Shown in pieces: positions 8,848 through 26,651 of a DNA stretch of 64,000 bases (the first letter of the stretch is position 1; the number at the start of each line of letters is the position of its first letter). The notes below the pieces were generated by a model, which worked only from the letters and a program-made list of their open reading frames with translations, did not search any database and was not told where the DNA came from. The stretch spans positions 615,959 to 679,958 of the forward strand of contig JALIZF010001749.1 in the NCBI GenBank assembly GCA_029948255.1, in the 5' to 3' direction. The translations under genes were made by a program, and so were the position numbers. This DNA is from Telmatactis stephensoni (taxonomy: Eukaryota; Cnidaria; Anthozoa; Actiniaria; Isophelliidae).

Positions 8848-8938
8848 AGCAGCAGTAAGGGTTTGTTCCGTTTGGACCTTGAAATATGCAGGCCCTGCCT
8901 GCGTAGATCGAGGGGTGTCGGCAGCAGGGATTCACTGC
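8848..8938 (+). repeat. Left terminal inverted repeat, 91 bp
   Basis: It starts AGCAGCAGTAAGGG and matches the reverse complement of 26561-26651 at every one of 91 positions. Identity stops abruptly after GATTCACTGC. Confidence 0.95.
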
Positions 8939-8984
8939 ACCAATTATGGCGTTTTGGGGCCCGGAGATTAAAAATGGCAAAACC

Positions 8985-8999
8985 CCTTACTGCTGCTGG
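8985..8999 (-). repeat. Subterminal inverted copy of the terminus (left)
   Basis: CCTTACTGCTGCTGG is the reverse complement of the terminal AGCAGCAGTAAGG plus flanking bases. It ends 150 bp inside the left tip. The matching site at the right end (26500-26512) sits at the same 150-bp spacing. Confidence 0.75.
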
Positions 9000-9049
9000 A
9001 GACATCGTCGGTTGGTATTGTTTATTGAATATAAAATATATATAGATAT

Positions 9050-11731
9050 ATGGACGCTATTGACTGGCTATTACAAAGCGAGTTACCTCCTATTGCAAAT
9101 GAAGAAATAGCGCGTCTCAGAAAGAATGTAATCGATAACACAAATGCAGATATAGTTTTTACAACGTTTATAGAAAAAAATACAGATGCTTCGATGACTG
9201 AAGAACGCGCGGAAGATATTATTAATAGACTGCCCGAAGGGGATTTTCGTCTGCAGTTAGCATTTATAAAATACGATGGCCGCCAGTGGATAGTTGAAGA
9301 GGGGAGAAATCCTATTCGGGCAAGTAATCGTAAAGATCTATTTATCTTGAATAAAAATACTAGGCCCGGCGCTTTAGTGGGCATTGACTCTTTGTATTAC
9401 GATGAGGCGTATCCTGTAACCGTGGTTATTTACTTGGGTTATAAAATAAAAGAGCCCGATGCAGAAAAGCTACAGCCGATGAGACATCCCGGCAGCTGTG
9501 TCGCCAAACTTATTAGAGAATATTTTACAGACTCTACGAAAGGCGGCAGTTTAACTGACGAACGAAAAAAGGCCATAAGGACATGGGAAAAAAATACACA
9601 GAGGTGTGGCGGTACTATAGAAGCAATAAAGAAATTAGAAGTGGCTATAAAGAGGCGCATTGTTGTGCTAGACATTATGGGCGGGTTTATTTATTCTGGC
9701 ACAGATAAGTATAGAGGCAATGGACCGGCTATAAATATTTATCAGCATAATGGTCATGCGTGGAGAGATGTGAGGTTTCCGAAGAAAAAGAGAGTAGAAG
9801 TGTATAAAGATGTGAATCCGCTGTGGACGGAATTTGACATTGACGGTAATATTCTTTGTGATGGCAGTGATTTTATTAAAGAGAATTCTATATGGCTGCT
9901 AGATGCGGAGGGGACGCAGTTTATTACGCAGGATGGGACGCTTTATCGGCCGCAGGTGGAGGATGAAAAAATAAGAAAGGCCTGTGAGATATTGGGCGAG
10001 GATTTTAGAGAAGAGGTATTTTGTAGTAGTTCTTTAGACTTTGTGGCCGCGAGAAAAAGAAATCATTGGAAGCCGACGCCGAAAGAGTTGCCGGAGATTG
10101 CGTTGGCGTGCGTTGAACATGGTCATGGCGGTCTTTGGAATATGGAGTACAAAAAAGAAGATTATGTGTCGCTGGACATGAAGCATTGTTATCCGGCCAG
10201 CTTTAAGGGACTGGGAGATGCGGCGTCTTATTATCAGCGGTATGGACATCCGGATTCGCAGTTCTTTAGGGTGGCTTTAGATGGGCGTTATGAGGCGCCG
10301 GCTAATGGGTTTGTGAAGTTGACGGCGTGGAAGTTTAAAGAGGGGCTTCATCCTATTATTTACGCGTGGTATGGTAAGCATATAGAAGAGAAAGGTTGGA
10401 TTCCGGTGCCGTTGTTAAAGTTCTTTGAAGAGCGTGGACTTTTAGAGTATACGGCGCACGAGGCCATTCTTTGCCACGGTGATAAGACACAGTGGCTGCC
10501 GGCGGATAATCATGCGGCGCGGATTGTTATTGGTAAGTTTACGCAGGGCGCCAGAGCAGGAGAAAAACATATGCAGCGGCGGCTGATAACTGATGATGAA
10601 GAGCTGAACTTTTTAATAAAAAAGGCCCATAAAGAAAATACTATGGTGCGGACAGATGACTTTGGCGGCGATGGCAAAGTGTTGTGTTATTATAACGATT
10701 ATAGGGCGCAGTATTATCATTTAAGGGCTTCTATGTTGTCGTATGCTCATATTAATCTTTTGACGATGCTGCTGCGGTTTGATAAGGAAGATATACCTAG
10801 GGTGGCCACGGATAGTTTGTATATAAGGCCTGAGGTGTTGGAAAAGATGAAAATGTATTATGTCAAAGATGAGATGGCCGAAAGTGGACAATGGCGTATA
10901 AAAAATGAAGAGATGAGGACTTGGCGAGAAAGGGTGAAATACTGCGGTAATCATAAAGAGGGCAAAAGAGAGGCGACGCAGGAAATATGGCCCAGCGTTA
11001 GTGATCCTATTAGCTATAAACGGTTTTCTTATCTCTATGGCGCTGGCGGCAGTGGTAAGACGACGAGGGTGTTAGGGCTGTTTCCGGAGGTAAAGGTATT
11101 AACGCCCACTCATCGTTTAGAAAGGGAATTAACACTGCAGGGATATGATGCGCAGACCTATCATAGCTTTTTTCGTTATAACGGCGAAAAGTGGGTTCCG
11201 GAGGCTATAAAAGAGATACCGCCGGTTATTCTTTGGGACGAGATTTGTACGGTGCCGCTGCCGATGCTGAAGGAGTTTGTAGAGTTCTTAAAGGGGAAAA
11301 CGCAGGTGATATTTGCGGGCGATCCGTGTCAGCCGCCGCCTATTGCGGGAGAAATGCCGCATGAGTGGTTAAAGGAGTTTTACCATGAAGAAATAAAAGC
11401 CGATTATAGAAGTAAAGATGAGAAGATAAAGAAGTTTAAAAGTTCATTGAGAGGATTAACCGATGTTGAGCAGTGTAAATGTATGAGGAAAAATATGAAG
11501 GCGCGGGATTATGAGCTGTTCTTGCAGGAGTGGAGGCCGACGGATTTGGTGATTAGTAGTAAAAGGGCTGTGCAGGCGAGAATTGAAAAAGATCTGTTAA
11601 GGCGGCATCGGGAAAAGTTTACTTCGCATTTGGTGCCGGTGTCTTATAGGCCACGCGATACAAGACAAAAAAAAATCAATTACGGTGCCTTATACGCAGG
11701 TAATCTTAGAAAATGCTGTAACACACGATAG
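9050..11731 (+). CDS. DNA polymerase B - SF1 helicase fusion protein
   Basis: The 893-residue product combines a divergent family-B polymerase with a Pif1/RecD-like superfamily-1 helicase. Polymerase motif A is S-L-D-M-K-H-C-Y-P (catalytic Asp near 376, Tyr-Pro at 381-382). Motif C is V-A-T-D-S near 585-589; the first Asp of the usual DTDS is Ala, but the metal-binding second Asp is kept. I see no clear 3'-5' exonuclease motifs. Helicase Walker A G-A-G-G-S-G-K-T is at 664-671, Walker B W-D-E near 729-731, and G-D-P-C-Q-P-P-P-I follows. The last helicase motifs are in another frame (11685-12059), beyond a frame change at a run of nine A near 11675. The start is the ATG right after ATATATAGATAT. 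It would replicate the element. Confidence 0.88.
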   Translation: MDAIDWLLQSELPPIANEEIARLRKNVIDNTNADIVFTTFIEKNTDASMTEERAEDIINRLPEGDFRLQLAFIKYDGRQWIVEEGRNPIRASNRKDLFILNKNTRPGALVGIDSLYYDEAYPVTVVIYLGYKIKEPDAEKLQPMRHPGSCVAKLIREYFTDSTKGGSLTDERKKAIRTWEKNTQRCGGTIEAIKKLEVAIKRRIVVLDIMGGFIYSGTDKYRGNGPAINIYQHNGHAWRDVRFPKKKRVEVYKDVNPLWTEFDIDGNILCDGSDFIKENSIWLLDAEGTQFITQDGTLYRPQVEDEKIRKACEILGEDFREEVFCSSSLDFVAARKRNHWKPTPKELPEIALACVEHGHGGLWNMEYKKEDYVSLDMKHCYPASFKGLGDAASYYQRYGHPDSQFFRVALDGRYEAPANGFVKLTAWKFKEGLHPIIYAWYGKHIEEKGWIPVPLLKFFEERGLLEYTAHEAILCHGDKTQWLPADNHAARIVIGKFTQGARAGEKHMQRRLITDDEELNFLIKKAHKENTMVRTDDFGGDGKVLCYYNDYRAQYYHLRASMLSYAHINLLTMLLRFDKEDIPRVATDSLYIRPEVLEKMKMYYVKDEMAESGQWRIKNEEMRTWRERVKYCGNHKEGKREATQEIWPSVSDPISYKRFSYLYGAGGSGKTTRVLGLFPEVKVLTPTHRLERELTLQGYDAQTYHSFFRYNGEKWVPEAIKEIPPVILWDEICTVPLPMLKEFVEFLKGKTQVIFAGDPCQPPPIAGEMPHEWLKEFYHEEIKADYRSKDEKIKKFKSSLRGLTDVEQCKCMRKNMKARDYELFLQEWRPTDLVISSKRAVQARIEKDLLRRHREKFTSHLVPVSYRPRDTRQKKINYGALYAGNLRKCCNTR

Positions 11732-12059
11732 GGCTTGGGTGCCGCTATCTGTAGTAGAAAAGGTTATTTCTTCGCCGGACTGGCGGTTAGGTTATTGTAT
11801 GACAGTACACAGTGCTCAGGGATTAACAGTTAAAGAAAACTTATGGATTATAGACCAGCGTCTTTGTTGGAGTAATCTTATTTACACTGCAGTTAGCAGA
11901 GTTGAATACTACAAACAACTAAAAAGAGCGTGGGGTCCGCAATTACGGTACGATAATACACCGCCTGAAGTAGCTAAGGCTAATATACTTAAGAAACTGC
12001 AGCGGTATAAGAAAATTGATGAGGAAAAAAATAAGGTATTCGACCTTAACGGTCGATGA
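11685..12059 (+). pseudogene. C-terminal helicase motifs, out of frame with the main ORF
   Basis: This frame holds the motifs missing from the upstream ORF: T-V-H-S-A-Q-G (motif V type, about 27 residues from its DWRLGY stretch) and Y-T-A-V-S-R (motif VI). It overlaps the 3' end of the polymerase-helicase ORF by 47 bp and has no ATG, so it is not an independent gene. A single-base change in the A-run near 11675-11684 separates the two. The direction needed is +1, so a standard -1 viral slip would not join them. It is either a mutation, an assembly error, or an unusual recoding site. Confidence 0.8.
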
Positions 12060-12241: not shown

Positions 12242-12269
12242 ATCCTTGGGGACTATGAGCAGCTCTTCT

Positions 12270-12659
12270 TTAACAAATCCACGGCTTGGACCATCTGTTA
12301 AGTAATACAACACAGGCTGTCCTTCTTTTGTGACGGACTTTCGAGATCTGGTAAGTTTTCAAAGACCAATTAGGATCCGTAGCTCTTTTGGATCCTCCTT
12401 CTAATTCCCCAGGCTGATAGAAGATATCTGAACCGTATATTCTGTGCACTAATTTTTTTTCTTTCATTCCTACTGCTCTTGAACTCCTAACGTAGGATTT
12501 GTGTTCGACGTGTTTCTTTTTTATGGCATCCTTAGGTTTCATTCCCGTTGCCCTTGTTTCCTCATTATTTAAAGCCTTAATGACCTCTGGAAGTCTCTGC
12601 ACCCACTCCCTGTTGCTTTTGGATGGATCTGCTAAGTTCTTTCCAATACTGATATCCAA
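12270..12659 (-). pseudogene. Integrase C-terminal part, out of frame
   Basis: It continues the integrase ORF at 12577-13209 in another frame. It contains W-V-Q-R-L-P-E-V-I-K-A-L-N-N-E and A-T-G-M-K-P-K-D-A-I, the usual region after the catalytic Glu, and ends with a basic tail including P-G-E-L-E-G-G and D-P-N-W-S-L. The overlap with the upstream frame places the break near 12600-12650. The tail resembles the end of Polinton-type integrases. Confidence 0.75.
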
Positions 12660-13209
12660 ACAACCGTTCCGCTAGGGTGCGATTAAATCTTTCAACGAGG
12701 CTTTGACCCCTGTGGTACTCTGCTTCAGCTCTCCTGATCTTAGTATCGTGGTCTTTCAGCGTTTTAGTGACAGCGCCCATGAACTCTGTGCCCGCATCAA
12801 CCTGCAGCAGCTTTGGCCATTTTAAAACGCGCTTATAAATCCTACTTAGAGCCTCGGCGACTTCTCCAGAGTCTTTGCTGGTTAGGGGTTCGGCGTCTTT
12901 GTATCGGCTGGCGATATCCACGACAGTCAAGGCATATTTGTAAGTTTTTCTCTTTACCTTATCGTGCGGCAAAAAAAGTAAATCTGCCTGATGAACTTCG
13001 TTTGGAGTATTCACGGTAAAGCTGGGTCTAGGAATGTATTTAGGAACGGGAAGATAAACCTGCCAAAGGGTTTGTTTTTTTAACCAGTTCTTCGCTGTGT
13101 CTTCAGAGACTCTAGCCGCTACAGCAAGTTTCTTAATAGCCGAGGCTCCTCGCCAATAGCCTTCGGGTCCATAATAAATCCTCTTAAGTTTGTCTTCGAC
13201 GCGGGGCAT
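12577..13209 (-). CDS. Retroviral-type (rve) integrase, N-terminal and catalytic domains
   Basis: The 210-residue ORF has an N-terminal helix-turn-helix-like segment (about 25-45, A-A-R-V-S-E-D-T-A-K-N-W-L) and the D-D-E core: D76 in H-Q-A-D, D138 in Q-V-D-A-G-T-E-F and E173 in L-V-E-R-F-N, with 34 residues between the last two. It would cut and join element ends into host DNA with the 5-bp stagger seen in the TGATC duplication. The ATG follows ATTATATA directly. The C-terminal part is frameshifted (12270-12659), so this copy is probably defective. Confidence 0.88.
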   Translation of the reverse strand: MPRVEDKLKRIYYGPEGYWRGASAIKKLAVAARVSEDTAKNWLKKQTLWQVYLPVPKYIPRPSFTVNTPNEVHQADLLFLPHDKVKRKTYKYALTVVDIASRYKDAEPLTSKDSGEVAEALSRIYKRVLKWPKLLQVDAGTEFMGAVTKTLKDHDTKIRRAEAEYHRGQSLVERFNRTLAERLFGYQYWKELSRSIQKQQGVGAETSRGH

Positions 13210-13216
13210 TATATAA

Positions 13217-13570
13217 TCATAAAAACAAGGCCATCAAGTTCGACGTAAAAACAGAAACCTCTCCACTGGCCACTGCGATTTGGACTCGAATAGTTTGCGG
13301 ATCCAGGATGGGGAGTTGGGCGGAGAACATACCTGTTTGTTTTATTGGGTAAATAGGGATTGTTCCGACAGTGCTTTCGCCTGTTATTCGAATGCTGGCT
13401 TGTCCTTTTAAATCGATGTTTAGGTTACAAAAAAGAATGCCGCTTTTAAAACCCGCGGCGTTTATTTTTAGATTTTTGATGTCCGTCCAAAGCGGGCTAT
13501 TATATTTGCCTCCATCTGTGGGGTTTTGTTTAACTATTAATTGAGTTGCCGGAATCAGATAGGGGTTCAT
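13217..13570 (-). CDS. Unknown beta-rich small protein (117 aa)
   Basis: I do not recognise a domain. The sequence alternates hydrophobic and polar residues, with few charged stretches, as in an all-beta fold; it could be a spike or minor virion component. Its ATG shares a base with the stop of the penton-like gene (TAATG), and the ATATA box lies inside that gene's last codons. It sits in the capsid gene block, which suggests a structural role. Confidence 0.7.
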   Translation of the reverse strand: MNPYLIPATQLIVKQNPTDGGKYNSPLWTDIKNLKINAAGFKSGILFCNLNIDLKGQASIRITGESTVGTIPIYPIKQTGMFSAQLPILDPQTIRVQIAVASGEVSVFTSNLMALFL

Positions 13571-14160
13571 TATATAAATTCCAAGACAAGACTAATTTGG
13601 CGCCTGTTAAAATCGACAACCTTTCCATCGACTTTGACGGTGATATTTACTTCTGTCACCAAGTCGCAAATATCATAGTCCAAAGAAATGGGGCGATATT
13701 CTACTAGGTCAAACGGATTGCCCTTGGGCGGGAATTTCGTCATCACATGAGACAGTTTCCCATCGTCGTAGCTCTGTACTAAGTCGCAATGGATTTCATA
13801 GTTGTAAGGAATTTTCCAATGATAGACTAATCTATTATTTACTGTGTCTGTTCCTAAGAGGACATTTATGGGGAGGTTTAAACTATACTGACCTTGTTTG
13901 GGTATGGTCAGTTTCCATTCATGGGGCAATCCCGTTGTTAAAGAGACATCGTGTTTGGCGAGTTCTTTGGCCAGCGTCTGCGGTTTATAATGCGAATCAG
14001 GAATTTTATGAGCGGTTCCTTGTTTTGTCACCTCGCCGCCAATTAAATTATACCAAGAATTGTACAAAGAGCAACTTATGAGCCGAACCTTGTGAGCTTT
14101 GATCGGCGGGTTGAAATAAGTTATAAAAGGATTCTGGTCACTGTTCAAAAAGACGATCAT
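13570..14160 (-). CDS. Penton-like minor capsid protein
   Basis: This 196-residue protein has the features I associate with single-jelly-roll vertex proteins of Polintons and Polinton-like viruses. An early N-P-F-I-T-Y-F-N-P-P-I stretch leads to L-Y-N-S-W-Y-N-L-I at about residues 31-39. A segment H-Y-K-P-Q-T-L-A-K-E-L then sets up a P-x-x-x-x-L-x-x-x-L pattern, and alternating beta strands run to the end. It should form the icosahedral vertices around the major capsid protein at 20745-21995. It overlaps the next gene upstream by 4 bp (ATGA) and shares TAATG with the one downstream. Confidence 0.7.
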   Translation of the reverse strand: MIVFLNSDQNPFITYFNPPIKAHKVRLISCSLYNSWYNLIGGEVTKQGTAHKIPDSHYKPQTLAKELAKHDVSLTTGLPHEWKLTIPKQGQYSLNLPINVLLGTDTVNNRLVYHWKIPYNYEIHCDLVQSYDDGKLSHVMTKFPPKGNPFDLVEYRPISLDYDICDLVTEVNITVKVDGKVVDFNRRQISLVLEFI

Positions 14161-14582
14161 ATATAATAGGCCACGGCGCCTCCGATGGCCAGGCCTGAAA
14201 TGCCTAGAAACATTAATTCATTATTTTTTTGCCTTTTAGAAGGTGTGTAATAATCTTTAAACTGCGGTGGCTTTTTCAGAGCAAAGTGAGGATGCGTCTG
14301 TGCGTAGAGCTTAAAGGCGTAATCGGTGTTTTGGAAATTCTTATCGGCCTGCATTTTATCGCGGTAATTTTCATCTAACCAGTCGCGGTAGGCTTGTCTT
14401 TTTTTATTATAGGCGGCGAGGGCATTTTCATAGGCTTCCATGGCCAGATCGTGGCGTTTTCTTTCGGCGGCTAATTCATTTTTACTGTCGCCGTGAATCA
14501 GTTTGTCTAAATAGCGGCCGCCGTAGTTGGCGCCTGTAAAGGCTAAGGCTGCGGCGATGCTTCCGGCGATGACACTAACCAT
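14157..14582 (-). CDS. Membrane/coiled-coil protein with two hydrophobic ends (141 aa)
   Basis: A hydrophobic N-terminus (I-A-G-S-I-A-A-A-L-A-F) and a C-terminal segment (F-L-G-I-S-G-L-A-I-G-G-A-V-A-Y-Y-I) bracket a long charged helix rich in A, E, K and Y. No known domain. A virion-membrane or vertex-associated protein is possible. The last codon ATA plus the TGA stop overlaps the ATG of the penton-like gene. Confidence 0.7.
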   Translation of the reverse strand: MVSVIAGSIAAALAFTGANYGGRYLDKLIHGDSKNELAAERKRHDLAMEAYENALAAYNKKRQAYRDWLDENYRDKMQADKNFQNTDYAFKLYAQTHPHFALKKPPQFKDYYTPSKRQKNNELMFLGISGLAIGGAVAYYI

Positions 14583-14837: not shown

Positions 14838-15167
14838 CTATTCCATCTCGGGGATCTTAGAGCGCTTTTTTTCTTTAGGTTCATGGTGTATTACGGGCTC
14901 AAGATGCACAGCGGTCTTCTGTGATTTCCACTGTAGGTATAAGCTGCCCATGGCCACTAAAAGGCCAAGGCCGCCGATGACGTAGCCCGGATTGATATCC
15001 CAGCCGTCACTAGATTCCGAAGAAGGGTCTTTTTTGGCTTTATTCTTTTTATTCAGCTCGGCCAGCTTTTTTCCCGCCGCTACTCTGCCGGGCGCCTTTG
15101 GCTTGGTGATCTTTTGTTCGGCCGCGGCGGGGGTAGTAGTATCTTCTTTCTGCTCGGTGTCACTCAT
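14838..15167 (-). CDS. Single-pass membrane protein with Lys/Ala-rich head (109 aa)
   Basis: A polar, lysine- and glutamate-rich N-terminal region of about 60 residues is followed by one transmembrane segment (V-I-G-G-L-G-L-L-V-A-M-G-S-L-Y-L) and a basic tail with K-E-K-K-R-S-K. No domain recognised. It is part of the run of small membrane proteins upstream of the penton-like gene. The start codon follows CCTTAATAT. Confidence 0.65.
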   Translation of the reverse strand: MSDTEQKEDTTTPAAAEQKITKPKAPGRVAAGKKLAELNKKNKAKKDPSSESSDGWDINPGYVIGGLGLLVAMGSLYLQWKSQKTAVHLEPVIHHEPKEKKRSKIPEME

Positions 15168-15223: not shown

Positions 15224-15752
15224 TTAAGTTGTTGACTCGACTTGATCAAGTTCTTGTGGCGGACTTGCGGTGACTTGCGGCTGACTTAGTCGTGACTTCT
15301 TGAAGTCGCTCCAAGACGTCGTAAGTTCTTGTAAGTCGATGTGCTGCGCTATGTGAAGTGCTCCGCTGGCCAACGCCATTAACTTGCCGCATTTTAAAGA
15401 CAACCAGCCACAAGTGATCTTAAGTTCTTGGGCGATGATATAGTCCTCACTTAAGTCTTTTTGTAATTGCTGGACGTCGTCTATGGGCAGTGCAAGTCCA
15501 AGTAGTTTAGTGGCCAGCTTTATAGCGCTGTCGGCGACGGCGTCTGTGGTTTTACTGGCAAGTGCCACTTCATAGCGCTTATAGAACTTCTTCACATCGG
15601 CTTCAGACAGCTGATTGACTTGTTCATGCGTCAGTTCTTTGCCGATCATTTCTTTACATTTGCCGCTGCTGACTAAAACATTAAGCTGTTCTTTCAGTTG
15701 ATCATCACCCAGCTGTGTGGGCGGCTCATCCTAATAGCTCTTCGATGTTCAT
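15224..15752 (-). pseudogene. Helical protein of unknown function, start separated by a frameshift
   Basis: The long frame (15224-15649, 141 residues) is mostly helical, with a hydrophobic centre around residues 40-105 and an S/Q/P-rich tail. The better start is the ATG at 15752, which carries the usual ATATAC context. It reads eight codons, M-N-I-E-E-L-L-G, then a stop. The frame that continues from there (D-E-P-P-T-Q-L-G-D-D) joins the long ORF. A single-base indel near 15729-15731 therefore splits the 5' end. No domain recognised. Confidence 0.6.
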
Positions 15753-15766: not shown

Positions 15767-16372
15767 TCATAGATTTTTCACGCTGTAAGGATATCTTAGG
15801 GAAAAAATCATTTTAGAATACTGATTGACTTTTAAATGCCGCATATGTTCTTGTAGCTGCTCTTTGGTTATTTCGCCGCCATAGTCGCTAAGGATGGTTT
15901 CTAGGTCGCTTTTGCTGGGCGTGTAAAAGACTACTAAAGAGCCGATATTTTCTCTAAAGGGCTTACTGACGCTGGTCAGCTGCTGCGAGAGTAACCATAC
16001 GGAAATATTATCATGGCGCCCGGAAAAGGCCAGTTTTACTAGCTCTGAAGTGCGTTTTTTTACATCATCGCCGCAGGCAATATCATCCAGAATAAGTAAC
16101 GTTTGCGTCTCGGTGATGTGCCCCCACTGCCGATGCCAAAATTTTAAATGCGTTGAGAGTTCATTAGGGTCTAAGATGTCTACAAAAAAATCATCATCTT
16201 CTTTGCCCACGTTTTCCCAGGTCTTATTGTTAACGTAGGTGGGGCAAAGTAAAACAATGTAATCGAACTTATATCTAAAAGGGCCTAATAGCTGCTCGAC
16301 CACGAATTTAGTCTTGCCGCAGCCGGTCGGGCCCACGATGAGGGCGTTACAAGGAATATGTTCTGGGTTCAT
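15767..16372 (-). CDS. HerA/FtsK-type genome-packaging ATPase
   Basis: The 201-residue protein has Walker A G-P-T-G-C-G-K-T at residues 14-21 and Walker B L-I-L-D-D at 93-97, followed by V-W-L-L-S-Q-Q-L, where the glutamine fits the sensor position of A32-like packaging ATPases. It would pump element DNA into the capsid. The frame is intact. It is divergent from the gene at 16408, with 35 bp between the two ATGs, and both starts carry ATATA-like boxes (AAGATATA and AATATAGAT). Confidence 0.88.
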   Translation of the reverse strand: MNPEHIPCNALIVGPTGCGKTKFVVEQLLGPFRYKFDYIVLLCPTYVNNKTWENVGKEDDDFFVDILDPNELSTHLKFWHRQWGHITETQTLLILDDIACGDDVKKRTSELVKLAFSGRHDNISVWLLSQQLTSVSKPFRENIGSLVVFYTPSKSDLETILSDYGGEITKEQLQEHMRHLKVNQYSKMIFSLRYPYSVKNL

Positions 16373-16619: not shown

Positions 16620-17072
16620 ATGAATCCTTACAGCCCGGGAGCAGATTGTGTTTATGCGGCTTTAGATACCGAAGCAGATTATAATCTGGGGTCTTGGCAA
16701 AATGTGGCCGGATTGAGCGTGGATGTGAATTATCCCGGCCGAAAATTGATTCTTTGTAGTATTTGTATTAGTACCGAGAGCCATGTGAATGCGGGATTTC
16801 AATTTGTGGATCACGACGGGAAACCCTTTCTACCTATGCGCGCTAAGACGAATAAACGAGAGCCGGCCCATTTTTCATTTGAACCGCCGATCAACTCTAC
16901 AGAGAATTTAAGCGTCGTCACGTTTCATATGGTGGCCGAAGTGAAGAAAAAAGTCCAGCTTCAAGTGCGGGCCGATGACTCGGGCAAACTTCGCGTCAAT
17001 GGAATTGCCGACAAGAGAGATAGGCCTTATAATCACATGACCATTAGCACTCTGACGGTTCTTTCACTATAA
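16620..17072 (+). CDS. Fibre-like beta protein, paralogue A (150 aa)
   Basis: It aligns along its whole length with the product of the next gene. Shared stations are W-x-x-(V/I)-x-G-x-x-V-D-V, L-C-S-(I/V)-x-I-x-T, P-x-x-(H/V)-F-S-(F/Y)-E-P and V-T-F-H-(M/L)-V-A. The pattern of short hydrophobic strands suggests a compact beta sandwich like a fibre or spike head. The tandem paralogues point to a surface protein under diversification. The fold call is inference; I do not recognise a named family. Confidence 0.72.
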   Translation: MNPYSPGADCVYAALDTEADYNLGSWQNVAGLSVDVNYPGRKLILCSICISTESHVNAGFQFVDHDGKPFLPMRAKTNKREPAHFSFEPPINSTENLSVVTFHMVAEVKKKVQLQVRADDSGKLRVNGIADKRDRPYNHMTISTLTVLSL

Positions 17073-18288: not shown

Positions 18289-18753
18289 TTAATAGCGCCC
18301 TTTGAGCCATTGGCCTAATTCTTTTATCCGCTCTTCATGGGCGGCCGCAAAGTCGTCTTCGCATTTTTTAGCCAGCGCGTCATAATACTTTTCCATATTG
18401 GCATTATATTCGCTTACGCCGCCGCAGACATTATGCGACATGTGATAACGTAGACTCTGTTTAGAGGCAAAATCTCTTTTACAGGCCGGACATGGATTAT
18501 CTAAGTACAGCATTTCTTCTTCGGCTTCTCTCCGCGGCATCCTATCTTTGAGCGGATATAAACACCGCCAAATGTGATTTTCCGAATCCCTAGTATCTTT
18601 ACAGCCGCCGTGATGCACAGAAGTCCAATGTGGGCGATTTTCCCAGGGCGCGCCTTCAATGTCGTCAAAATAAGCACCGCTGCCAAAGCGTTCATCTATG
18701 CGCTTTTTTTCCTTATTCAGACGCTCTATATGCCGGCAATCGCAGCGCGCCAT
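18289..18753 (-). CDS. Cys-rich protein with C2H2 finger
   Basis: It opens with a short Cys/His cluster (C-D-C-R-H). Later it has C-P-A-C-K-R-D-F-A-S-K-Q-S-L-R-Y-H-M-S-H, a standard C2H2 finger, followed by a charged helix. The ATG at 18753 lacks the element's ATATA signal. Upstream, the finger ORF at 18801-18998 runs toward it in a different frame, so the two may be halves of one frameshifted multi-finger gene. DNA binding is likely. Confidence 0.6.
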   Translation of the reverse strand: MARCDCRHIERLNKEKKRIDERFGSGAYFDDIEGAPWENRPHWTSVHHGGCKDTRDSENHIWRCLYPLKDRMPRREAEEEMLYLDNPCPACKRDFASKQSLRYHMSHNVCGGVSEYNANMEKYYDALAKKCEDDFAAAHEERIKELGQWLKGRY

Positions 18754-18800
18754 CAAATCGCCGCAAGTCGTAGCACTCTAAATCGCCAAAGTCATATTCT

Positions 18801-19307: not shown

Positions 19308-19631
19308 TTAAGAGAACATATCTTTCTTTTCTATTTTGACCGCATTAAAGCTCCAATAGCTATTATTGCCACAACGGCTTTTTTTGAGCCCATTACTCCG
19401 TATATGCGTATATTCTTTGCCCTCTAAAGTCTCTTTTACCCGCTGCGGCGCCCACATAGTGTAAAAATTATTATCGCCATCCTCCAGGGTCAGCTTCATA
19501 CTCTCGGCCGCGTGTATCTCAAAGACATCATAGCCCACAATCTTATAAATGCGCCCGACTTCTAAATCGCGCCACTTTGTCATGGTTTCGGCCTCTTTGA
19601 TGGCTTTGTTAAATTCTTCGGCGCTGATCAT
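19308..19631 (-). CDS. Unknown protein (107 aa)
   Basis: I do not recognise a domain. It has an acidic N-terminal helix, then a beta-rich body (W-R-D-L-E-V-G-R-I-Y-K-I-V-G-Y) that looks like a small OB- or SH3-like barrel, in the pattern of some single-strand-binding-type virus proteins. The start is AAGATATAATG. It lies between the acidic protein and the Bro-N protein, with 5 bp and 29 bp spacers. Confidence 0.6.
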   Translation of the reverse strand: MISAEEFNKAIKEAETMTKWRDLEVGRIYKIVGYDVFEIHAAESMKLTLEDGDNNFYTMWAPQRVKETLEGKEYTHIRSNGLKKSRCGNNSYWSFNAVKIEKKDMFS

Positions 19632-19660: not shown

Positions 19661-20470
19661 TCAAATACGATGGATCACCTTTAGATGCGCCGCCAATGTT
19701 TCTTCGGTTTTAAAGCGCCTTGGACACCGCGGGCAAGGCATCCTGAGGCCGCAGCAGTATTCTTTTAAGACGTCAACTATCTCATCGTAGTCATGGCTGA
19801 CCAGCGTTAAATAGCCCTCTTGCTCATAGCGTCGTAATATTTCTTTTTGCGCCTCAGATACCTCTCCCGTGCCCTTAGGTGTCTTAAATTCTATACAGAG
19901 GCCGTTATAATTTTTATGCGAATTTTGCACTATAAGATCTGGTTGCCCTTTCTGATAGCCCTTTTGCCAGCTTTGTATGCGCTTTTCCCGGCTATCTTGG
20001 TTTTCTCCGAGCCCGGCGACAAGGAGAAGATTATGAAAGCGGCGGATATAATCTATTACTTTTTTATGTAAGTCAAACTCATTTTCGATCTTAAAGCACG
20101 TGATGGCCCTTATATCCTTTTTGAACTCATAACAGCCAGTTTTGCGTATCTGCGGCAATACCTCTGAAAACACCCACTTTCTGAATTCTATGGCGCTGGG
20201 CAGCTTACTGCTAAAAATTAACTCATACAGACCAGGCTCAGTAACATAGACGGTGTTTGGCTGCTCATTCAAGGGGGCATTATTTCGATGCCCCCTTATA
20301 TCACACAGGGATTTCTTGTACTCCTCAGATACGTGGTCTCTTATAGCATTTTTTTCACTAACATAGCCTAAGGCCCTAGCAACATCTTTTGCCTTAAAAT
20401 ACAATTCATCTCCTTTTTTTAGGGTATTGAGTTTTAGATTTAGCTGTGGGTTTTCAAAAACGCGTATCAT
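19661..20470 (-). CDS. Bro-N / VRR-NUC / C2H2 three-domain protein
   Basis: The 269 residues divide into three parts. Residues 1-112 are a Bro-N DNA-binding domain (F-K-A-K-D-V-A-R-A-L-G-Y; E-P-G-L-Y-E-L-I-F-S-S-K; F-R-K-W-V-F-S-E-V-L-P-Q-I-R). Residues 130-240 are a VRR-NUC-type nuclease core with P177-D178, E194-F-K196 and Q208. Residues 246-266 are a C2H2 finger (C-P-R-C ... H-L-K-V-I-H). The catalytic D/E-x-K set is complete, so an active structure- or site-specific nuclease is plausible, perhaps resolving replication intermediates. The start context is GATATACCATG. A truncated Bro-N duplicate lies immediately upstream at 20527-20703. Confidence 0.85.
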   Translation of the reverse strand: MIRVFENPQLNLKLNTLKKGDELYFKAKDVARALGYVSEKNAIRDHVSEEYKKSLCDIRGHRNNAPLNEQPNTVYVTEPGLYELIFSSKLPSAIEFRKWVFSEVLPQIRKTGCYEFKKDIRAITCFKIENEFDLHKKVIDYIRRFHNLLLVAGLGENQDSREKRIQSWQKGYQKGQPDLIVQNSHKNYNGLCIEFKTPKGTGEVSEAQKEILRRYEQEGYLTLVSHDYDEIVDVLKEYCCGLRMPCPRCPRRFKTEETLAAHLKVIHRI

Positions 20471-20744: not shown

Positions 20745-21995
20745 TTAATAGGCAATGGACTGAAGTTGATTACCTTCTATGTTCATTTGCGCATCGCCGA
20801 CGACAAAGATGTGGCAGTTGATCTTGTCATCATTGCCCGCGCCAGAATTTGTTGTGCGTTTTATCTCCAAAGTGACGCCGTCTTGTGTGCTGACCAGTTT
20901 TAAGCCCTGGCCGTGAATATCATTGTCCTCTGAGGTTCTTAGATCCACCCACAGGGCATATTTATTGCCATGAAAGAATTGCTGGGGGCTTATGTGGTCG
21001 CCAAACCGCCTTACCACTTCATTATAAATGTCGCTCGGCTTCAGGCCCTGCGAGTAAACCTTATTTGGAACGCCGTTGATATTTACTTTGACGTTGGTAA
21101 TCTTTGGATTCACAAAGGCCTCAGAATCTCTCTGGCCAGCCGAAAATGGCTTTACGAAGAGCAACAGCAGCCCAGACAGAGACCTGCGGGGTATATTCAC
21201 CGTTTCGGTAATTAAATCTTGGGTCTTGTCTAGAACGGGGATGGTCTTGTGATGATGCACGTGGTCATAGAGAAAAGCCTTGCCAGCAGAGTATTCAGCG
21301 GCGGCACTGCGGGCTAAGGTATCGCTGTGAATGGTTTCATACTGCAGCTGTAGATTGGTCATACTGTAGTCGTGAATCGCCCCAGACAAAGCCGAGTCAG
21401 TGCCCTGCAGTAAGTTAGTGGTGTCCGCCAGCGTCACTTCAAACTGCATATCAGATGATAAGATTCTGGGGTAAAAGACACCATGGGTCTTCAGAACTTC
21501 AAAATCCAAAGGGATGACATATTTGGTGCCATAGGCCGTTGATAGCGCCGTAGCTTCTGCATCACTTCCCTTATTGGATGAACTACTTCTCATCTTTCTC
21601 AAGGTATCAGTGCCAACGCCCTGCTCCACCAGCACATCTCTCTCTTTAGGCCATAGGAATAGATCCTTATAGGTGTGGTAAAGGTCATACCTGTTGAGAT
21701 CTAAAAGACATTCGCCGGCAAATTTAACTTTCATGCGATTGACGATGTTGCGGCCTATGTTGTTAACGCAATAGCGCTTGTCGGCCGTTGTTGGTTGTAT
21801 GGCCAAATCAAACCGCAGCGCCAGGGTGCCAGGCACTAAGAGAAGATTTTCTGAGAGTGTGGGGACGCTGACGTATAATGTCTCGCCGGGCTTTGCACTA
21901 GAGGGCGTAAAAGTAACGCGATGAAAAGTCCTTTCGGCCTTTAAGCCGCCGGTCTTTTTGGGCAGAATATTAGGGTCTAACTTTGAGCTGATCAT
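20745..21995 (-). CDS. Double-jelly-roll major capsid protein
   Basis: The 416-residue product has the organisation of Polinton/PLV-type major capsid proteins. An N-terminal jelly roll carries N-N-I-G-R-N-I-V-N-R-M-K-V-K-F-A-G, the usual 'vertical' strand region with a short loop after L-D-L-N-R-Y-D-L-Y. A second roll follows, ending in strands such as H-I-F-V-V-G-D-A-Q-M. I chose the ATG at 21995 and not an upstream one because ATATATA abuts it and it is divergent from the gene at 22003. The frame is intact. It would build the icosahedral shell with the penton-like protein at 13570-14160. Confidence 0.85.
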   Translation of the reverse strand: MISSKLDPNILPKKTGGLKAERTFHRVTFTPSSAKPGETLYVSVPTLSENLLLVPGTLALRFDLAIQPTTADKRYCVNNIGRNIVNRMKVKFAGECLLDLNRYDLYHTYKDLFLWPKERDVLVEQGVGTDTLRKMRSSSSNKGSDAEATALSTAYGTKYVIPLDFEVLKTHGVFYPRILSSDMQFEVTLADTTNLLQGTDSALSGAIHDYSMTNLQLQYETIHSDTLARSAAAEYSAGKAFLYDHVHHHKTIPVLDKTQDLITETVNIPRRSLSGLLLLFVKPFSAGQRDSEAFVNPKITNVKVNINGVPNKVYSQGLKPSDIYNEVVRRFGDHISPQQFFHGNKYALWVDLRTSEDNDIHGQGLKLVSTQDGVTLEIKRTTNSGAGNDDKINCHIFVVGDAQMNIEGNQLQSIAY

Positions 21996-22002
21996 TATAT
22001 AT
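21996..22002. promoter_or_regulatory. 7-bp divergent promoter TATATAT
   Basis: The two ATGs (21995 minus, 22003 plus) are separated only by TATATAT, a near-palindrome that gives each gene the element's ATATA start box. There is no room for any other promoter element between the genes. Confidence 0.75.
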
Positions 22003-23445
22003 ATGGAAGGAGAAATAGATCCGGATTTTGATCCAACCACCGAAGAGGGCCAAATAGATATTAACGACGATGAATATGAATCTCTTATCCCAAATGATGA
22101 CGTGAACCCCCAAGGCCTTTTTGATAAGCTTAGGCATAGGATTTGGAGACGGGGCTCGATCTGTCTGGCGGTCGTTGGGTGAAAAATGGAAGTCACGTAA
22201 CCAGGGTCGCCGACTTCCTGAATACTTACAGTTGAAAACGTTTGACGCGCTAGAAGAAAATGAAATGGTCGACTGGCTGCTCGAGAGCCCCATCGAGAAC
22301 GCCAAAGAGCGCCTCTCCGAGCTCTACGAAAACTTCAACTTTGATGAGGTAAAACTATCTGAGCATCGGGGCCAGGCTTACATCTCTTTTCCAAACGAAA
22401 AGAAAAAAGACGCCTGGACTAAGCCACAAAAACTTTTTACTAAAGATGGTGAGGTTACAGAAACGGTAAAGGCGCTCAAGGGATTTAAAATGGCATCGAG
22501 AGGCCTCTTAGAGCTATTGAAAGAGCATAATGCAAAGATCGCATTACAAAAGAGAGCCATCGACCTAGAAGATCAACAGTAGAAGAGTCAGGGGCCACGG
22601 GAGTCTGTTGGATAGATTACGAATGGTAATAGGTAACGAACATGCTGCAGCCTTAAAAGAGATAGAGGAACTTAAAAAGACAATGGAAGAAAGGGAAAGA
22701 GAATATATGAGAAAAAGTAGAGCAGTTGAGGAAGCCCGAAGAAGAGACAATGAATCACTTATGACAGTGATTAACGAAGGTAAAAAAGCCTTCGAAGAAA
22801 GGGACCAAGCAAGAAATGCCTTTGATTTAGCTGTACAGGATCTAGGTCTAGAGAGAAGTACGAAGTTAAAAATCTAAAAACTACTATTGAAGGTTCCCTT
22901 GAAGAAAGACAACAACTCATAGCCAGGATTAATACTATGGAAGAACAGATAAGGCAGAGAGAACAGGCTATTGAAGACTTGGAGAGGCAAGTCGAGGAGC
23001 AACAACAGGTTATTAACGATGAAAGCCGCAGTGAGGAGGAAAGAGAGGCTGCTCAAAGGGAATTGGAAACCCTGCAGGAGAGAATTACTGAGCTGCGGGG
23101 GCAAAAAGAAAACTTAGAGCGGGAATTAGGTCTTACCACTAAGGAAAAAATAAAACGCGCCCTTTTAAAATATGGACTGCCACTTGCATTTGCAGTTGCT
23201 GTCAGCAGCGTCGTGGGTGTTATCTTCACCATGCTGAAAGCCACCGGGGCCTGGAGTTAAAAAAGTAGGACAAGGCCTTGCTAACCTGGGTAAAAAAATG
23301 GCAGGCTAGCATTCCAGGCCTGTTGGGTAGCGTACTTTCATTAGTACTAAGAACAGGTGGAGAACTGCTAAAATTCGTAGGCAACAACATCTGGATATTA
23401 GTTGTTGCCTTAGGGGCGGTCCTTCTTAAGAAGATGAAGATTTAG
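22003..23445 (+). pseudogene. Long coiled-coil membrane protein, broken by frameshifts
   Basis: The start at 22003 gives an acidic N-terminus. The sense frame then moves through 22121-22582, 22608-22877, 22937-23260 and finally a C-terminal piece ending at 23445. The central parts are dense E/R/Q heptads (for example E-D-L-E-R-Q-V-E-E-Q-Q-Q). Two hydrophobic segments end the gene: one near 23180-23235 (A-F-A-V-A-V-S-S-V-V-G-V-I-F) and one near 23390-23425 (I-W-I-L-V-V-A-L-G-A-V-L-L). In sum it would be about 470 residues. At least four frame changes break it here. Its position opposite the capsid gene suggests a virion protein, perhaps internal-membrane associated. Confidence 0.7.
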
Positions 23446-23456
23446 GCGCCTTCCGG

Positions 23457-24895
23457 TCATCGCAGTATATAATAACCCAGACTCATAGCTGAAGTCATTA
23501 GCCCAGCTTTCAGTAAGGCGTGGTCATATTTTTCCTCCTGTATGGTTGGCGGTTTTGGTTTATAAACTACTTTTTTGTTGTCGCTTCTTTTTTTACCGGA
23601 GTATGTACTTTTTACTGCAGGCTTTACAAAGTGAGGCACCCCAGCCTGTGGTTTGACCGTTAATGTCGTTGACACCAAACTTCATATTTTCAGTAGCCCT
23701 TTGTAGTTTGTTATTGTAACCTACTACGCTGTGTGTGTTTATAACAAGATTACTGGGCATTAACCAACAACCAGGGGATAAAGCATAGTCTAACCTTACT
23801 TTAGACTGCTGCACTGCAAGTTGATATCTTTGCACACTTTTACTAATGTCGTTTTCAATAATGGCACTTTCAAATAGTGTTAAAAATTCCTGCTGTGTTT
23901 CTTGTGAAGCTCCCTGTGCGTAAACAATAGGAGACCGAGTGTATGACCTTGAGCTCCCAAAATGCAGTAAACAAACGCTTCTATGCTGCGGTTAATCCTA
24001 GCAAGGTTAATAAGCCCTAGTCCTCTTTTTGCAATAAATGGAGACCAAGGATTAGGTATTTGACTTTGGATGTAGTAAAGTAAATTTCCTTTCATGCCGT
24101 CACCACCCAGGTCTGCAAACTCCCATCGACTAGGATAACCTATACCCGGCTTTGGCATATAAGGACCACCACCATAGATAAAAGTTTCACCTAGTCCATT
24201 TGCGGCGCCTTCTTTGTTGCGAAAATCGGGGTTGGTAAGTTTAAACTCATTCTTTAAACGCTCCCAGGCTATTTTATTGTAGTTATTGTCTTTTTGATTA
24301 AAAGCTTTACTGTCTGGCAGTGGCGTGTTAAGCTCATGCAGCAGCCTACGCATTGTAAATGCAACATGAAATCTTAAAAACGCATTGTCAAACATATCGA
24401 CACCTACACCACAACCCTTGGTAGCAGCCCAAACGGCAAAATTTAATTGTTGCGGCCAGTAGCGCATATCAGGCCCACTTAACCAATGTTCTACTTTCCT
24501 TACCACTAGTGTGTGTAATAGTGTAAGATTTAAAAATATCTCTCACTTTTATGTCAAAACTAGTCTTTCCTACAGGTATTTGTAAATTAGTCACTAGCTT
24601 TGCAAACTTAGTGTCGTTTTTGTTGTCATAAAATGGATAATTTTAATTTTTATCACCACGTACTGTAAGGGATAACTACTTTTATGCGTGGGGTCTAAAA
24701 AGAGTTCAAAAGCCATTTCCCCGTTGTAAAGCATAGAAGTTATTTATCCGTAATGTTATCTTTTTTGGTGTCTTTATTAAGCTGTGGGTATAGTTTTTCG
24801 CCTTTTTCTTTAAGACGTTCGTATTGTTTGTTAACTTGGCTGGTCGCATTGGCTGTTTTTATAAAAACACCCATGTTAAAATTCTCCCAACTCAT
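23457..24895 (-). pseudogene. Large conserved-looking protein of unknown function, heavily frameshifted
   Basis: The best start is the ATG at 24895, next to AATATA. Readable pieces follow in several frames down to 23457. The longest (24506-23880) contains W-L-S-G-P-D-M-R-Y-W-P-Q-Q-L-N-F-A-V-W and I-E-A-F-V-Y-C-I-L-G-A-Q, compact and low in charge, which looks like a real structural or enzymatic core. The end (23678-23457) is basic with a final hydrophobic helix. I count at least four breaks in about 480 codons. I have seen similar proteins called uncharacterized in cnidarian genomes (memory only); no domain name can be given. Confidence 0.65.
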
Positions 24896-24913
24896 TATAT
24901 TAGTAAGCTTAAT
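24896..24913. promoter_or_regulatory. 18-bp divergent promoter
   Basis: The minus ATG at 24895 and the plus ATG at 24914 are only 18 bp apart. AATATA abuts the minus start and CTTAAT the plus start. Confidence 0.55.
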
Positions 24914-25608
24914 ATGACTACTGATGTTTTAGAGCCGTCTGCACCAACTCTTTACCCTAATTTAAGCGGGCCTAATGAATTAAATGCTGAGAATTTCAGA
25001 TTGAATAAAGCAAATCTAATATTAGCTTACCTCGAAGGTCAAGCAAAGCACTACGGAAAATGTCAGGAAAAAAATATGCTAGAGCCAGAAGCATATTCCA
25101 CAAAGTTTGCTGTTACATACTGGATCTATGTCTGTTGTTTTAACGACTTCAGGGCCTGGCAACTTCTGTAGCCGGCCCTGGATTTGTCGTAGGAATACCT
25201 TTGGGGGTCGTTGGGGGAATTTGCGGGCATTATTTCAGCATTTTCAGCAGGAATAACGAAGAAATTATCCACGAAAAATATCAAAACATGACGCGACAAT
25301 AGCCCTGTCCGCGATCAAAAGTAAACAGCATAAGTGATCTGGTGTCAAAGGCATTGCATGACAGAAGGATCGATGATGTCGAATTCTAGCTAATTCTAGC
25401 CGAGGAAAATAAATACGAAAAGTTGAAGTCTGAAGTTAGGAATAAAAAAACAATTGTCAAAGACCTGACCGAGGAAGAGAGAAAAAAAAATATACCAATC
25501 AGCCAGAGACGAGCTTCAAAGAAAACTAAATCTGTAAATATTCACCTCGAGAAAAATCCCATGGGCTTTAATTTGCATATCGAACGCCAGTCTATTCACA
25601 GCTGTTAG
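24914..25608 (+). pseudogene. Membrane-plus-helical protein, broken
   Basis: From the ATG at 24914 the frame runs 85 codons (E-P-S-A-P-T-L-Y-P-N-L start, then a helical stretch N-L-I-L-A-Y-L-E-G-Q-A). It loses frame near 25060-25170. A glycine-rich hydrophobic segment (V-V-G-I-P-L-G-V-V-G-G-I-C-G) and a charged helix with L-V-S-K-A-L-H-D-R-R-I-D-D-V-E-F follow in other frames with stops, ending at 25608. The E-P-S-A-P-T-L-Y-P motif contains P-S-A-P, a PSAP-type late-domain sequence, which may be coincidental. It is inactive as it stands. Confidence 0.6.
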
Positions 25609-25720
25609 AATAAGCCAATCGGAGATCAATAAAACAATAGGCTGGATTATGCCATAAGCCATTCGTATTCATAAAACTGTTAAAGATGATGCTGATTGTA
25701 TATTTATCTGCTGTCTAACA

Positions 25721-25852
25721 CTCCCTTATATGGAGGTCTCACGCGTGAGACTTTCGAAAGAGATTATGACATAATCCCATTCATATTCTATTGAATTCAT
25801 TTTTTGACGTGGCTCCCTTATATGGAGGTCTCACGCGTGAGACTTTCGAAAG
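25721..25852. repeat. Direct 40-bp repeat pair with a 16-bp palindrome
   Basis: The 40-bp unit CTCCCTTATATGG...TTTCGAAAG occurs at 25721-25760 and 25813-25852, 92 bp apart. Each unit contains the perfect palindrome GTCTCACGCGTGAGAC (25736-25751 and 25828-25843). The second copy includes the last codons and stop of the VLTF3-like gene. Possible roles are a duplicated 3' terminator, a protein-binding site, or a recombination scar. Confidence 0.8.
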
Positions 25853-26472
25853 CTTGCGTTCGACCGATGCATCAGCCGCCTAGGAATCCATCTCAATAAG
25901 GGATGATTGTGATCGATTTCATAAAATATCTTATAGATTACGTCAGGGTAATAATAGATTTTCCCTCGCAGCTGAGTAAACATTCCTTCGGCCCTACGCA
26001 TAGTTTCCATAGAAACCTCGGGAATTTTTTTGCCTGTAATTTCTGACAAAATACAAGAAATGCCCTTATTGTATTTTTGTAGCTTTAATTTTTTTAGAGT
26101 CTTTTTCAAACCCCCCGGTGTGTGCTCTTTGAGATGAGCTTTTATCCGCCGTAAGGTTTTCTTATCAGCATAGACTGGCTCTAAACCTAATATAATTCGC
26201 ATCCATTTTCTAAAGTAAATAATTCTCTTATATGGCGTCTTTTTACGACCGCCGTTGGCATAATATTGCCCTTCAGTCGCACAGCGTACAGCATTAAAGA
26301 TTATTCGCCCACAACTTTCGCATACGGCCGAAGTGTCTTCTTCTATGGTCATCTTATCACCACAACACTTTAAGCGTCTTGGCGGCGGCGGTATAAGTTC
26401 TCGCTTAAGACAATCAGAACACATTTTATAACTTTCATAGGTTACGGCAGGCGCGTTACAGTCACACAACAT
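25831..26472 (-). CDS. Poxvirus VLTF3-like late transcription factor
   Basis: The 213-residue protein has N-terminal Cys pairs (C18/C21, C36/C37, C51-x2-C54-G) forming a zinc ribbon. These are followed by the Y-K-R-I-I-Y-F-R-K-W-M-R-I-I-L-G block at 81-96, and later S-E-I-T-G-K-K-I-P-E-V-S and Y-P-D-V-I-Y-K-I-F. That order is characteristic of the VLTF3 family of poxviruses and other large DNA viruses, which directs late transcription. The ATG abuts ATTATATA. It is intact. I infer that it recognises or acts at the ATATA boxes shared by the other genes of the element. Confidence 0.82.
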   Translation of the reverse strand: MLCDCNAPAVTYESYKMCSDCLKRELIPPPPRRLKCCGDKMTIEEDTSAVCESCGRIIFNAVRCATEGQYYANGGRKKTPYKRIIYFRKWMRIILGLEPVYADKKTLRRIKAHLKEHTPGGLKKTLKKLKLQKYNKGISCILSEITGKKIPEVSMETMRRAEGMFTQLRGKIYYYPDVIYKIFYEIDHNHPLLRWIPRRLMHRSNASFRKSHA

Positions 26473-26499
26473 TATATAATTGTTATTTTATAGTCTCTA

Positions 26500-26512
26500 C
26501 CAGCAGCAGTAA
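26500..26512 (+). repeat. Subterminal inverted copy of the terminus (right)
   Basis: CCAGCAGCAGTAA lies inside the right end. Its AGCAGCAG starts 150 bp from the right tip, the mirror image of the left-end copy at 8985-8999. Confidence 0.7.
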
Positions 26513-26560
26513 TATCTTACTCCCTCTAAGGCCCATCTGTTGCGAGCTTCCTGAAACGAC

Positions 26561-26651
26561 GCAGTGAATCCCTGCTGCCGACACCCCTCGATCTACGCAG
26601 GCAGGGCCTGCATATTTCAAGGTCCAAACGGAACAAACCCTTACTGCTGCT
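26561..26651 (-). repeat. Right terminal inverted repeat, 91 bp
   Basis: Exact reverse complement of 8848-8938. It is followed directly by the TGATC duplication. Confidence 0.95.

Follow-up and report, generated by a model that had tools for sequence, protein, structure and literature searches.

Organization of the integrated element

The window analysed here is a 64,000-nt stretch of DNA (GenBank assembly GCA_029948255.1, contig JALIZF010001749.1), and all coordinates are positions within it. At 8848..26651 the window contains an integrated element of 17,804 bp with genes for a polymerase-like/superfamily 1 (SF1) helicase fusion protein, a retrovirus-type integrase, a packaging ATPase, a double-jelly-roll major capsid protein and a VLTF3-like late transcription factor. 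The ends of the element are inverted arms of 91 nt (8848-8938 and 26561-26651), which are 100% complementary and separated by 17,622 nt. They are bordered by the target-site duplication (TSD) TGATC on the left (8843..8847) and on the right (26652..26656). A search of the assembly (483.5 Mb, 1782 contigs) with the right flank led to two further places, C138 and C1157, in which the left flank is joined directly to the right flank with a single TGATC between them. Identity of these flanks to the window is 98.6% (C138) and 99.5% (C1157) on the left, and 99.1% and 98.7%, respectively, on the right. C138 and C1157 are natural empty sites, and the boundaries of the element and the 5-bp duplication are therefore exact to the base. 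The two places represent either other alleles or duplicated loci.

The left terminal repeat (8848..9002, + strand) starts with AGCAGCAGTAAGGG and finishes near the inverse of that sequence, CCCTTACTGCTGCT. In this copy 91 nt of it are common with the right terminal inverted repeat (26561..26651, - strand), the inner part of which is an alternative allele. In some other copies the terminal repeat is approximately 155 nt long (L001, L003, L007 and L029, 152-155 of 155 positions identical), with inverted AGCAGCAGTAAGGG at both its ends.

Gene content

A Pfam search was performed with 20 open reading frames (ORFs) of the window copy and seven ORFs of other copies; none of the latter seven gave a match above the cut-off. 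The longest gene encodes the fusion protein, with a helicase like that of Tlr1. Its open part (9050..11731, + strand) contains Cys150 and His236, palm-like motifs including ATDS, and a Walker A motif. The reading frame is open up to 11731 and then carries on in other frames; the helicase end of the same gene lies in another frame (11601..12059, + strand), and the gene is thus broken in the window copy. The helicase part has a Pfam match (AAA_30, E=2.3e-6), which corresponds to the C-terminal SF1 helicase of the Tlr1 type, and it was also listed when the structure model of the fusion protein was compared by Foldseek and VIA; that a polymerase is missing from this listing is no evidence of its absence. 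Among the aligned sequences the motifs DMKxCYPAS, KFTQG and ATDS are invariant or nearly so, with no significant profile match. Cys150 and His236 (HNGHAW), which may belong to a vOTU-like domain, are invariant in all 23 rows, with neither fold nor profile match, and 21 of the 22 aligned relatives have an HNH-like C-terminal stretch. Relatives of 1043-1367 aa occur in the database as open frames. Of the polymerase-helicase fusion in the original prediction, the helicase stands on profile and fold listing, and a polymerase is suggested by motifs.

The integrase gene is split near 12.6 kb. Its main part (12577..13209, - strand) matches the rve domain (PF00665, E=1.5e-8), and its probable C-terminal part (12270..12671, - strand) was assigned by position and frame. 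No tyrosine recombinase was among the Pfam matches of the 20 window ORFs; the rve integrase and the TSDs are present instead. The packaging ATPase (15767..16372, - strand) is of the A32 type (PF04665, Pox_A32, E=2e-15). For the 416-aa capsid protein (20745..21995, - strand) the AlphaFold2 model had a predicted local distance difference test (pLDDT) score of 87.8, and the best matches among solved structures were giant-virus capsid proteins; the capsid identification withstood the structural check proposed with the original prediction. The VLTF3-like factor (25831..26472, - strand) was recognized by PF04947 (Pox_VLTF3, E=7e-10, 39.3 bits against a cut-off of 25). A further gene (19661..20470, - strand) encodes a fusion of Bro-N (PF02498, E=1e-27), VRR-NUC (PF08774, E=1.6e-5) and a C2H2-like segment. 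Thus the identification of the element as an integrated double-stranded (ds) DNA virus, originally drawn from its ends, target duplication, capsid, ATPase and integrase, was upheld, as were the VLTF3-like and Bro/VRR-NUC proteins. The description of the element as complete was overstated, with the fusion gene frame-broken, the integrase split and the module at 23.1-25.6 kb broken.

The window also contains a Polinton (41300-60000), with a PF03175 DNA polymerase in broken frames (E=1.6e-24), a chromodomain integrase and a Fic-domain ORF (42454-43200). PF03175 was found in none of the 20 element ORFs and none of the 23 fusion rows, the window Polinton serving as positive control, and the earlier separation of the two elements was borne out. 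Between them, at 36900-40900, lies a retrotransposon with a weak reverse-transcriptase match and integrase-like frames, which we take by eye to be BEL/Pao-like.

A motif adjoining the start codons

Gene starts of the form ATATA-ATG had been part of the original prediction. We defined the motif as ATAT or ATATA immediately 5′ of ATG. Of the 26 element ORFs of at least 80 aa, 17 starts were used; nine were excluded, either as overlapping other genes (9022-9384, 18613-18924, 20970-21215 and 21970-22293) or as pieces of broken genes (11799, 12270, 22623, 22937 and 23880). The motif was present at 12 of the 17 starts and at 6 of the 562 other ATGs of the element (Fisher test, 4e-17), and one of these six (22003) is the actual start of the coiled-coil gene described below. 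In the window outside the element 16 of 1743 ATGs had the motif, and none of the 16 starts of the window Polinton, which were read by eye with the first in-frame ATG counted as the start. The five starts lacking it are 15649, 18753, 20470 (ATATACC), 22265 (not the true start) and 24914 (in a decayed module). It is also missing at a 129-aa ORF present in six copies and at a 205-aa ORF present in one.

Two divergent gene pairs have a common start region. Between the capsid and coiled-coil genes this region reads CAT-TATATAT-ATG in the window (21993..22005), C126 and C254, and between the 518-aa and 200-aa genes it reads CATTATATATAATG in all eight other copies, with start codons 8 bp apart. With a gap of just 7-8 bp between the start codons in the two pairs, neither a leader nor a TATA box at its usual distance can fit. 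Poxvirus late genes are similarly arranged, with TAAAT at the start codon. The motif and the VLTF3-like protein together suggest a late-promoter system. As no RNA polymerase was among the Pfam matches of the window ORFs and the ORFs of other copies, we infer that this enzyme would be supplied by a helper virus or by the host.

Alternatively, ATATA-ATG could be a host-type TATA box or a translation context. The motif is a plain AT repeat, the argument comes from sequence, and the motif-less starts in the window and in other copies are in keeping with such an origin. Its rarity at other ATGs of the element and the window, and its absence from the Polinton starts, speak against it. A TATA box recognized by RNA polymerase II normally lies ~30 nt before the transcript start, and would here place that start inside the gene; the close spacing of the divergent start codons is a further objection. 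We consider the host-type explanation rather unlikely.

Copies in the genome

With the 91-nt end as query the assembly yielded 173 candidates. The best 40 were scored (30 loci in one set and 11 in another, L041 being a repeat of L030), and every one was 100% identical to the query. All 40 continue into either of the two sides of this element, never into unrelated content, which answers the genome-wide check of the terminal repeat proposed with the original prediction. Eight of the 11 end pairs on the same contig are bordered by an exact target duplication, which is 5 bp long in C199, C235, C216, C126, C114 and C28, 6 bp in C254 and 7 bp in C15. In C28 the ends are 34.3 kb apart, and this copy therefore probably contains an insertion. 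Some flanks recur (C404, C397 and C40; C132 and C96), which indicates duplicated or misassembled flanks.

The capsid gene gave 106 rows from the 100 scored of 182 candidates, counted by hand, with some rows being pieces of one gene. Sixty-two rows were full-length, stop-free and 94-100% identical, nine were full-length and stop-free at 85-87% identity, and 35 were partial or interrupted. Among eight copies that were read, the capsid gene was intact in five (window, C216, C254, C126 and C114). Five capsid remnants with equal scores (C404:5543-6802, C40:1321894, C397:410942, C593:254209 and C1299:46182) are either a duplicated region or assembly duplicates.

The two sides of the element differ in their divergence. 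At the polymerase side, identity to the window over 0.3-1.6 kb was 99.5-100% for 17 of the 19 other ends and 93% for two (L012 and L013); the 19 other ends at the VLTF3 side were 81-99% identical. In 400-nt bins, six of nine copies were 100% identical throughout the first five bins, and in C235, C254 and C15 the identity of the polymerase region fell from ~100% to ~60-70% at differing points. The capsid regions were 92-97% identical. These comparisons show that the copies are recent and mosaic, and that genomes of different lineages have recombined, wherever this took place. Exchange between such divergent lineages implies that a single cell contained both, whether they were viruses infecting it together or integrated copies.

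Two ends, L016 and L019, bear pieces of the opposite side of the element: they are VLTF3-side ends in which the polymerase gene's initial codons adjoin the terminal repeat. They are products of end-to-end recombination.

The ratio of nonsynonymous to synonymous substitution rates (dN/dS) of the capsid gene was 0.08-0.25 in a set of six pairs, from which C114 was left out, and 0.08-0.26 in a set of ten pairs that included C114, with three of these pairs containing an N-terminal extension. For the 518-aa gene the ratio was 0.18-0.33 (six pairs, few changes). These values indicate purifying selection on both genes across the copies.

The variable module and the remaining ORFs

The segment from 22 to 25.6 kb holds three genes. 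The first, encoding a coiled-coil protein with a transmembrane segment (22003..23260, + strand), is broken in the window and open over 398-480 aa in C235, C216, C254 and C126. It is followed by divergent copies of the 518-aa 'YWPQQ' gene (23593..24542, - strand, broken) and of the 200-aa membrane-protein gene (24794..25171, + strand, truncated). The other copies carry at this place a coiled-coil/transmembrane gene, the 518-aa gene (full-length in C216, C114, C254 and C15) and a gene for a membrane protein of 200-224 aa, the last in all eight. At 23.1-25.6 kb the window has a decayed version, 64-66% identical at the nucleotide level to a module that is mostly open in the other copies. We had considered the region at 23-25.6 kb, which has a lower G+C content, as a nested foreign insertion; this was dropped because all eight other copies hold related genes there. 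A database search with the 518-aa protein (L053:1541-3094) gave 335 relatives at E<=0.001; the protein had no Pfam match and no significant match to Protein Data Bank (PDB) sequences.

Between the integrase and the ATPase there are five ORFs on the - strand: a small ORF possibly encoding a single-jelly-roll protein (13217..13570, no Pfam match, ATATA-ATG start), a 196-aa ORF (13570..14160, no significant Pfam match, ATAT-ATG start), which by its position is a candidate minor capsid or penton gene, a 141-aa ORF with hydrophobic ends (14157..14582) and a 109-aa ORF with a transmembrane-like stretch (14838..15167), both features judged by eye and both ORFs having the start motif, and a further 141-aa ORF (15224..15649, no Pfam match). 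On the + strand the ORFs of 150 aa (16620..17072) and 198 aa (17097..17693) resemble each other by eye and are possible paralogues; neither has a Pfam match. A 154-aa ORF (18289..18753, - strand) has a weak C2H2 zinc-finger match (E=0.005, below the cut-off), and a 107-aa ORF (19308..19631, - strand) has the start motif. Two non-coding features were also noted. A near-perfect palindrome in the middle of the element (17888-18284), with 128-nt arms (95%) around 56-nt tandem repeats, may be a small nested element or have a role in replication. A pair of 40-nt direct repeats (CTCCCTTATATGGAGG...), identical in sequence and lying 92 nt apart, occurs where the VLTF3-like gene has its 3′ end (25721-25852).

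Relatives in other genomes

The capsid search gave 743 relatives; the best 120 of these span 43-95% identity, and many lie on contigs of 0.1-2.8 Mb. Elysia crispata accounts for six of the 45 rows of the fusion search, and Nematostella vectensis for one row among the best 120 of the 335 relatives of the 518-aa protein. These names, together with the neighbours of the window, suggest that the host is an animal. Contigs of the same size (6242, 534729 and 1983661) appear in both the capsid and the 518-aa match lists, a weak hint that the two genes adjoin elsewhere too. Alignments were built from 22 of the 45 fusion matches, 56 of the 743 capsid matches (best 120 listed) and 28 of the 335 matches of the 518-aa protein (best 120 listed). 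A tree of 57 capsid sequences, rooted at its midpoint, places the window in a cluster with ten relatives (support 0.988).

Comparison with known systems

The gene set had been described as unusual and possibly new. The combination of a polymerase-like/SF1-helicase fusion, an RVE integrase, an ATPase and a capsid protein with no protease is in fact the published picture of Tlr1, as far as the available sections of the reports go (PMC4028283, PMC4642659, PMC11071308). According to them Tlr1 of Tetrahymena thermophila has, like the element, an RVE integrase, a packaging ATPase and a double-jelly-roll capsid protein; in place of a protein-primed family B polymerase (pPolB) it has a protein with a pPolB-like palm and a C-terminal SF1 helicase, to which the fusion protein of the element is comparable, and no adenovirus-like protease is reported in them. 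Tlr elements are also described with a penton (PMC4028283, in part). Of the features of the Tlr1 type, the RVE integrase, the C-terminal SF1 helicase, the A32/FtsK-like ATPase and the double-jelly-roll capsid were found. The element differs from Tlr1 in the type of host, the VLTF3-like factor, the Bro-N/VRR-NUC protein and the start-codon motif; the end of the fusion is HNH-like in the element and, by the available account, GIY-YIG in Tlr1 (PMC12721341). The element works like the Tlr1 type and is placed near it from published descriptions.

OmPLV of the dinoflagellate Oxyrrhis marina, as portrayed in the same partial source (PMC12721341), shares with the element a Bro-N-VRR-NUC fusion, an A32 ATPase, inverted ends, a double-jelly-roll capsid with giant-virus affinity and an SF1 helicase, which in OmPLV is fused to pPolB. 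In OmPLV, in contrast, the helicase comes first, the polymerase is full and has an exonuclease, a tyrosine recombinase takes the place of the RVE integrase, and there is no target duplication. The Polinton-like viruses (PLVs) of the class Aquintoviricetes (exemplar Tetraselmis viridis virus S1) resemble the element in their reduced morphogenesis module and fusion replication enzymes (PMC12451622, in part), and by published descriptions this class would be its formal home. Some clusters of cryptophyte PLVs commonly have RVE integrases with TSDs (PMC12220804, in part), unlike the PLVs of the first survey, which, in the sections available, had no RVE integrase with one exception (PMC4642659).

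The nearest precedent for VLTF3 is found in Amoebidium appalachense, a relative of animals, whose adintovirus-like elements are integrated and Polinton-related, carry VLTF3 and capsid genes and in some cases are complete with long terminal repeats. As far as that source was available (PMC11244446), they differ from the element by a family B polymerase nearest to adintoviruses, a Dam methyltransferase and a size of ~30 kb. PLV-type capsids have been described in cnidarians, in Nematostella Polintons (PMC4642659, in part) and as cnidarian outliers (PMC10120064, in part), and the Nematostella relative of the 518-aa protein is a further likeness. These Nematostella elements were interpreted as chimeric, having a polymerase and an integrase of Polintons; the available text describes no fusion enzyme (PMC4642659). 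PLVs are also cited in stony corals and alongside insect poxviruses (PMC12220804, in part). The element is also unlike the virophages mavirus and Sputnik. To our knowledge virophages have no VLTF3. They carry a protease for maturation, and their replication genes are different (PMC4642659, in part).

Interpretation

We consider it likely that the element is a provirus of a Tlr1-type PLV lineage, probably in an invertebrate genome. Its linear dsDNA genome with inverted ends would be copied by the polymerase-like/SF1-helicase fusion, and replication is probably protein-primed, as judged from the motifs and from what is known of the family. The genes would be activated as 'late' genes by the element's own VLTF3-like factor acting at the ATATA motif that abuts the start codons. 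The double-jelly-roll capsid protein, a minor capsid protein and the A32-type ATPase may build and fill particles; for this step the capsid protein and ATPase were identified by fold or profile, and no maturation protease was found. The retrovirus-type integrase would insert the DNA at varied sites, mostly with a 5-bp duplication, in agreement with the duplications and empty sites.

Several observations weigh against this interpretation. No polymerase or vOTU Pfam model matched the fusion protein in any of the 23 members, the comparison of the palm with the window Polinton polymerase (hhalign) was not significant (E 0.37), and the structure model of the fusion was poor (pLDDT 62.7); the palm and a possible vOTU-like domain are suggested by motifs. 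By tblastn with one relative the fusion gene was open throughout in none of the ten copies examined, the longest single frame reaching residue 1031 of 1068 (C132), and therefore no copy is demonstrated to be replication-competent. No penton protein was identified among the element ORFs. An adenain-type protease, not found originally, was not found here either, by tests that miss known genes. No protease family was among the Pfam matches of the 20 window ORFs and seven ORFs of other copies, but this negative is weak because Pfam also failed to match the Polinton's own protease candidate, which in turn matched a solved viral cysteine protease at only E 0.38; phmmer with this candidate found nothing in 83 element frames, and the same test missed the ATPase and the capsid protein. 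The integrase is related to that of the window Polinton (E=4.9e-16). The complete identity of the ends is a selected figure, taken from the best 40 of 173 candidates, three of the 11 end pairs (C404, C132 and C40) have no TSD, and the mosaic copies could also stem from exchange between integrated copies. Queries of IMG/VR with the capsid protein, as one sequence and as an alignment, with the aligned fusion proteins and with the ATPase retrieved no relative.

Some of these points, namely the broken fusion genes and the negative IMG/VR searches, would, like the many copies in one genome (173 end candidates and 106 capsid rows), also fit a purely intragenomic transposon that spreads without particles and whose capsid genes are relics. 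Purifying selection on the capsid and 518-aa genes between copies is not expected of relics, nor is the finding that 71 of 106 capsid rows were full-length and stop-free, and we regard such a transposon as unlikely. A divergent animal Polinton or adintovirus (Eupolintoviridae) with some genes lost or replaced is very unlikely. The related integrase, the inverted ends, the capsid, the ATPase and the size are shared with Polintons, an adintovirus protein ranked ninth for the capsid fold in BFVD, and VLTF3 occurs in the Amoebidium elements. Against this, the element is without the PF03175 polymerase that is detected in the window Polinton, its polymerase-like part is joined to an SF1 helicase, and its ATPase and capsid protein had no phmmer similarity to the Polinton candidates at E<=10; the fold ranking is uninformative, as the PDB matches listed include no Polinton or PLV capsid. 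That the element is a small, mriyavirus-like member of Nucleocytoviricota which gained an integrase is highly improbable: VLTF2 and VLTF3 are said to be undetectable outside this phylum and diagnostic of it (PMC11253617, in part), and the A32 ATPase and the capsid fold nearest to giant-virus capsids would agree, but VLTF3 has the Amoebidium precedent in a Polinton-related element, the fusion enzyme, the integrase and the 18-kb size are PLV features, and mriyaviruses have, by the available text of the same source, an HUH endonuclease and RuvC and no DNA polymerase, neither HUH nor RuvC being among the Pfam matches of the 20 window ORFs (searched with no positive control).

As a Tlr1-type provirus the element would extend a type of PLV known from protists to what is probably an invertebrate genome, where its copies are recent and mosaic; among the matches listed from the open-licence literature, no report described an animal genome in which the Tlr1 type comes with VLTF3 and the start-codon motif. 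The element carries a giant-virus late factor and a start-codon motif common to most genes. By profile score it is an independent case, beside Amoebidium (PMC11244446, in part), of VLTF3 outside the relatives of giant viruses. It is conceivable, though rather unlikely, that such elements are widespread integrating viruses of invertebrates which encode a giant-virus late factor, use leaderless ATATA-ATG promoters and have no RNA polymerase; they would hence be virophage-like satellites of undiscovered animal giant viruses, with the proviruses as their reservoir. The finding makes it testable whether virophage-like elements in animal genomes answer to giant viruses.

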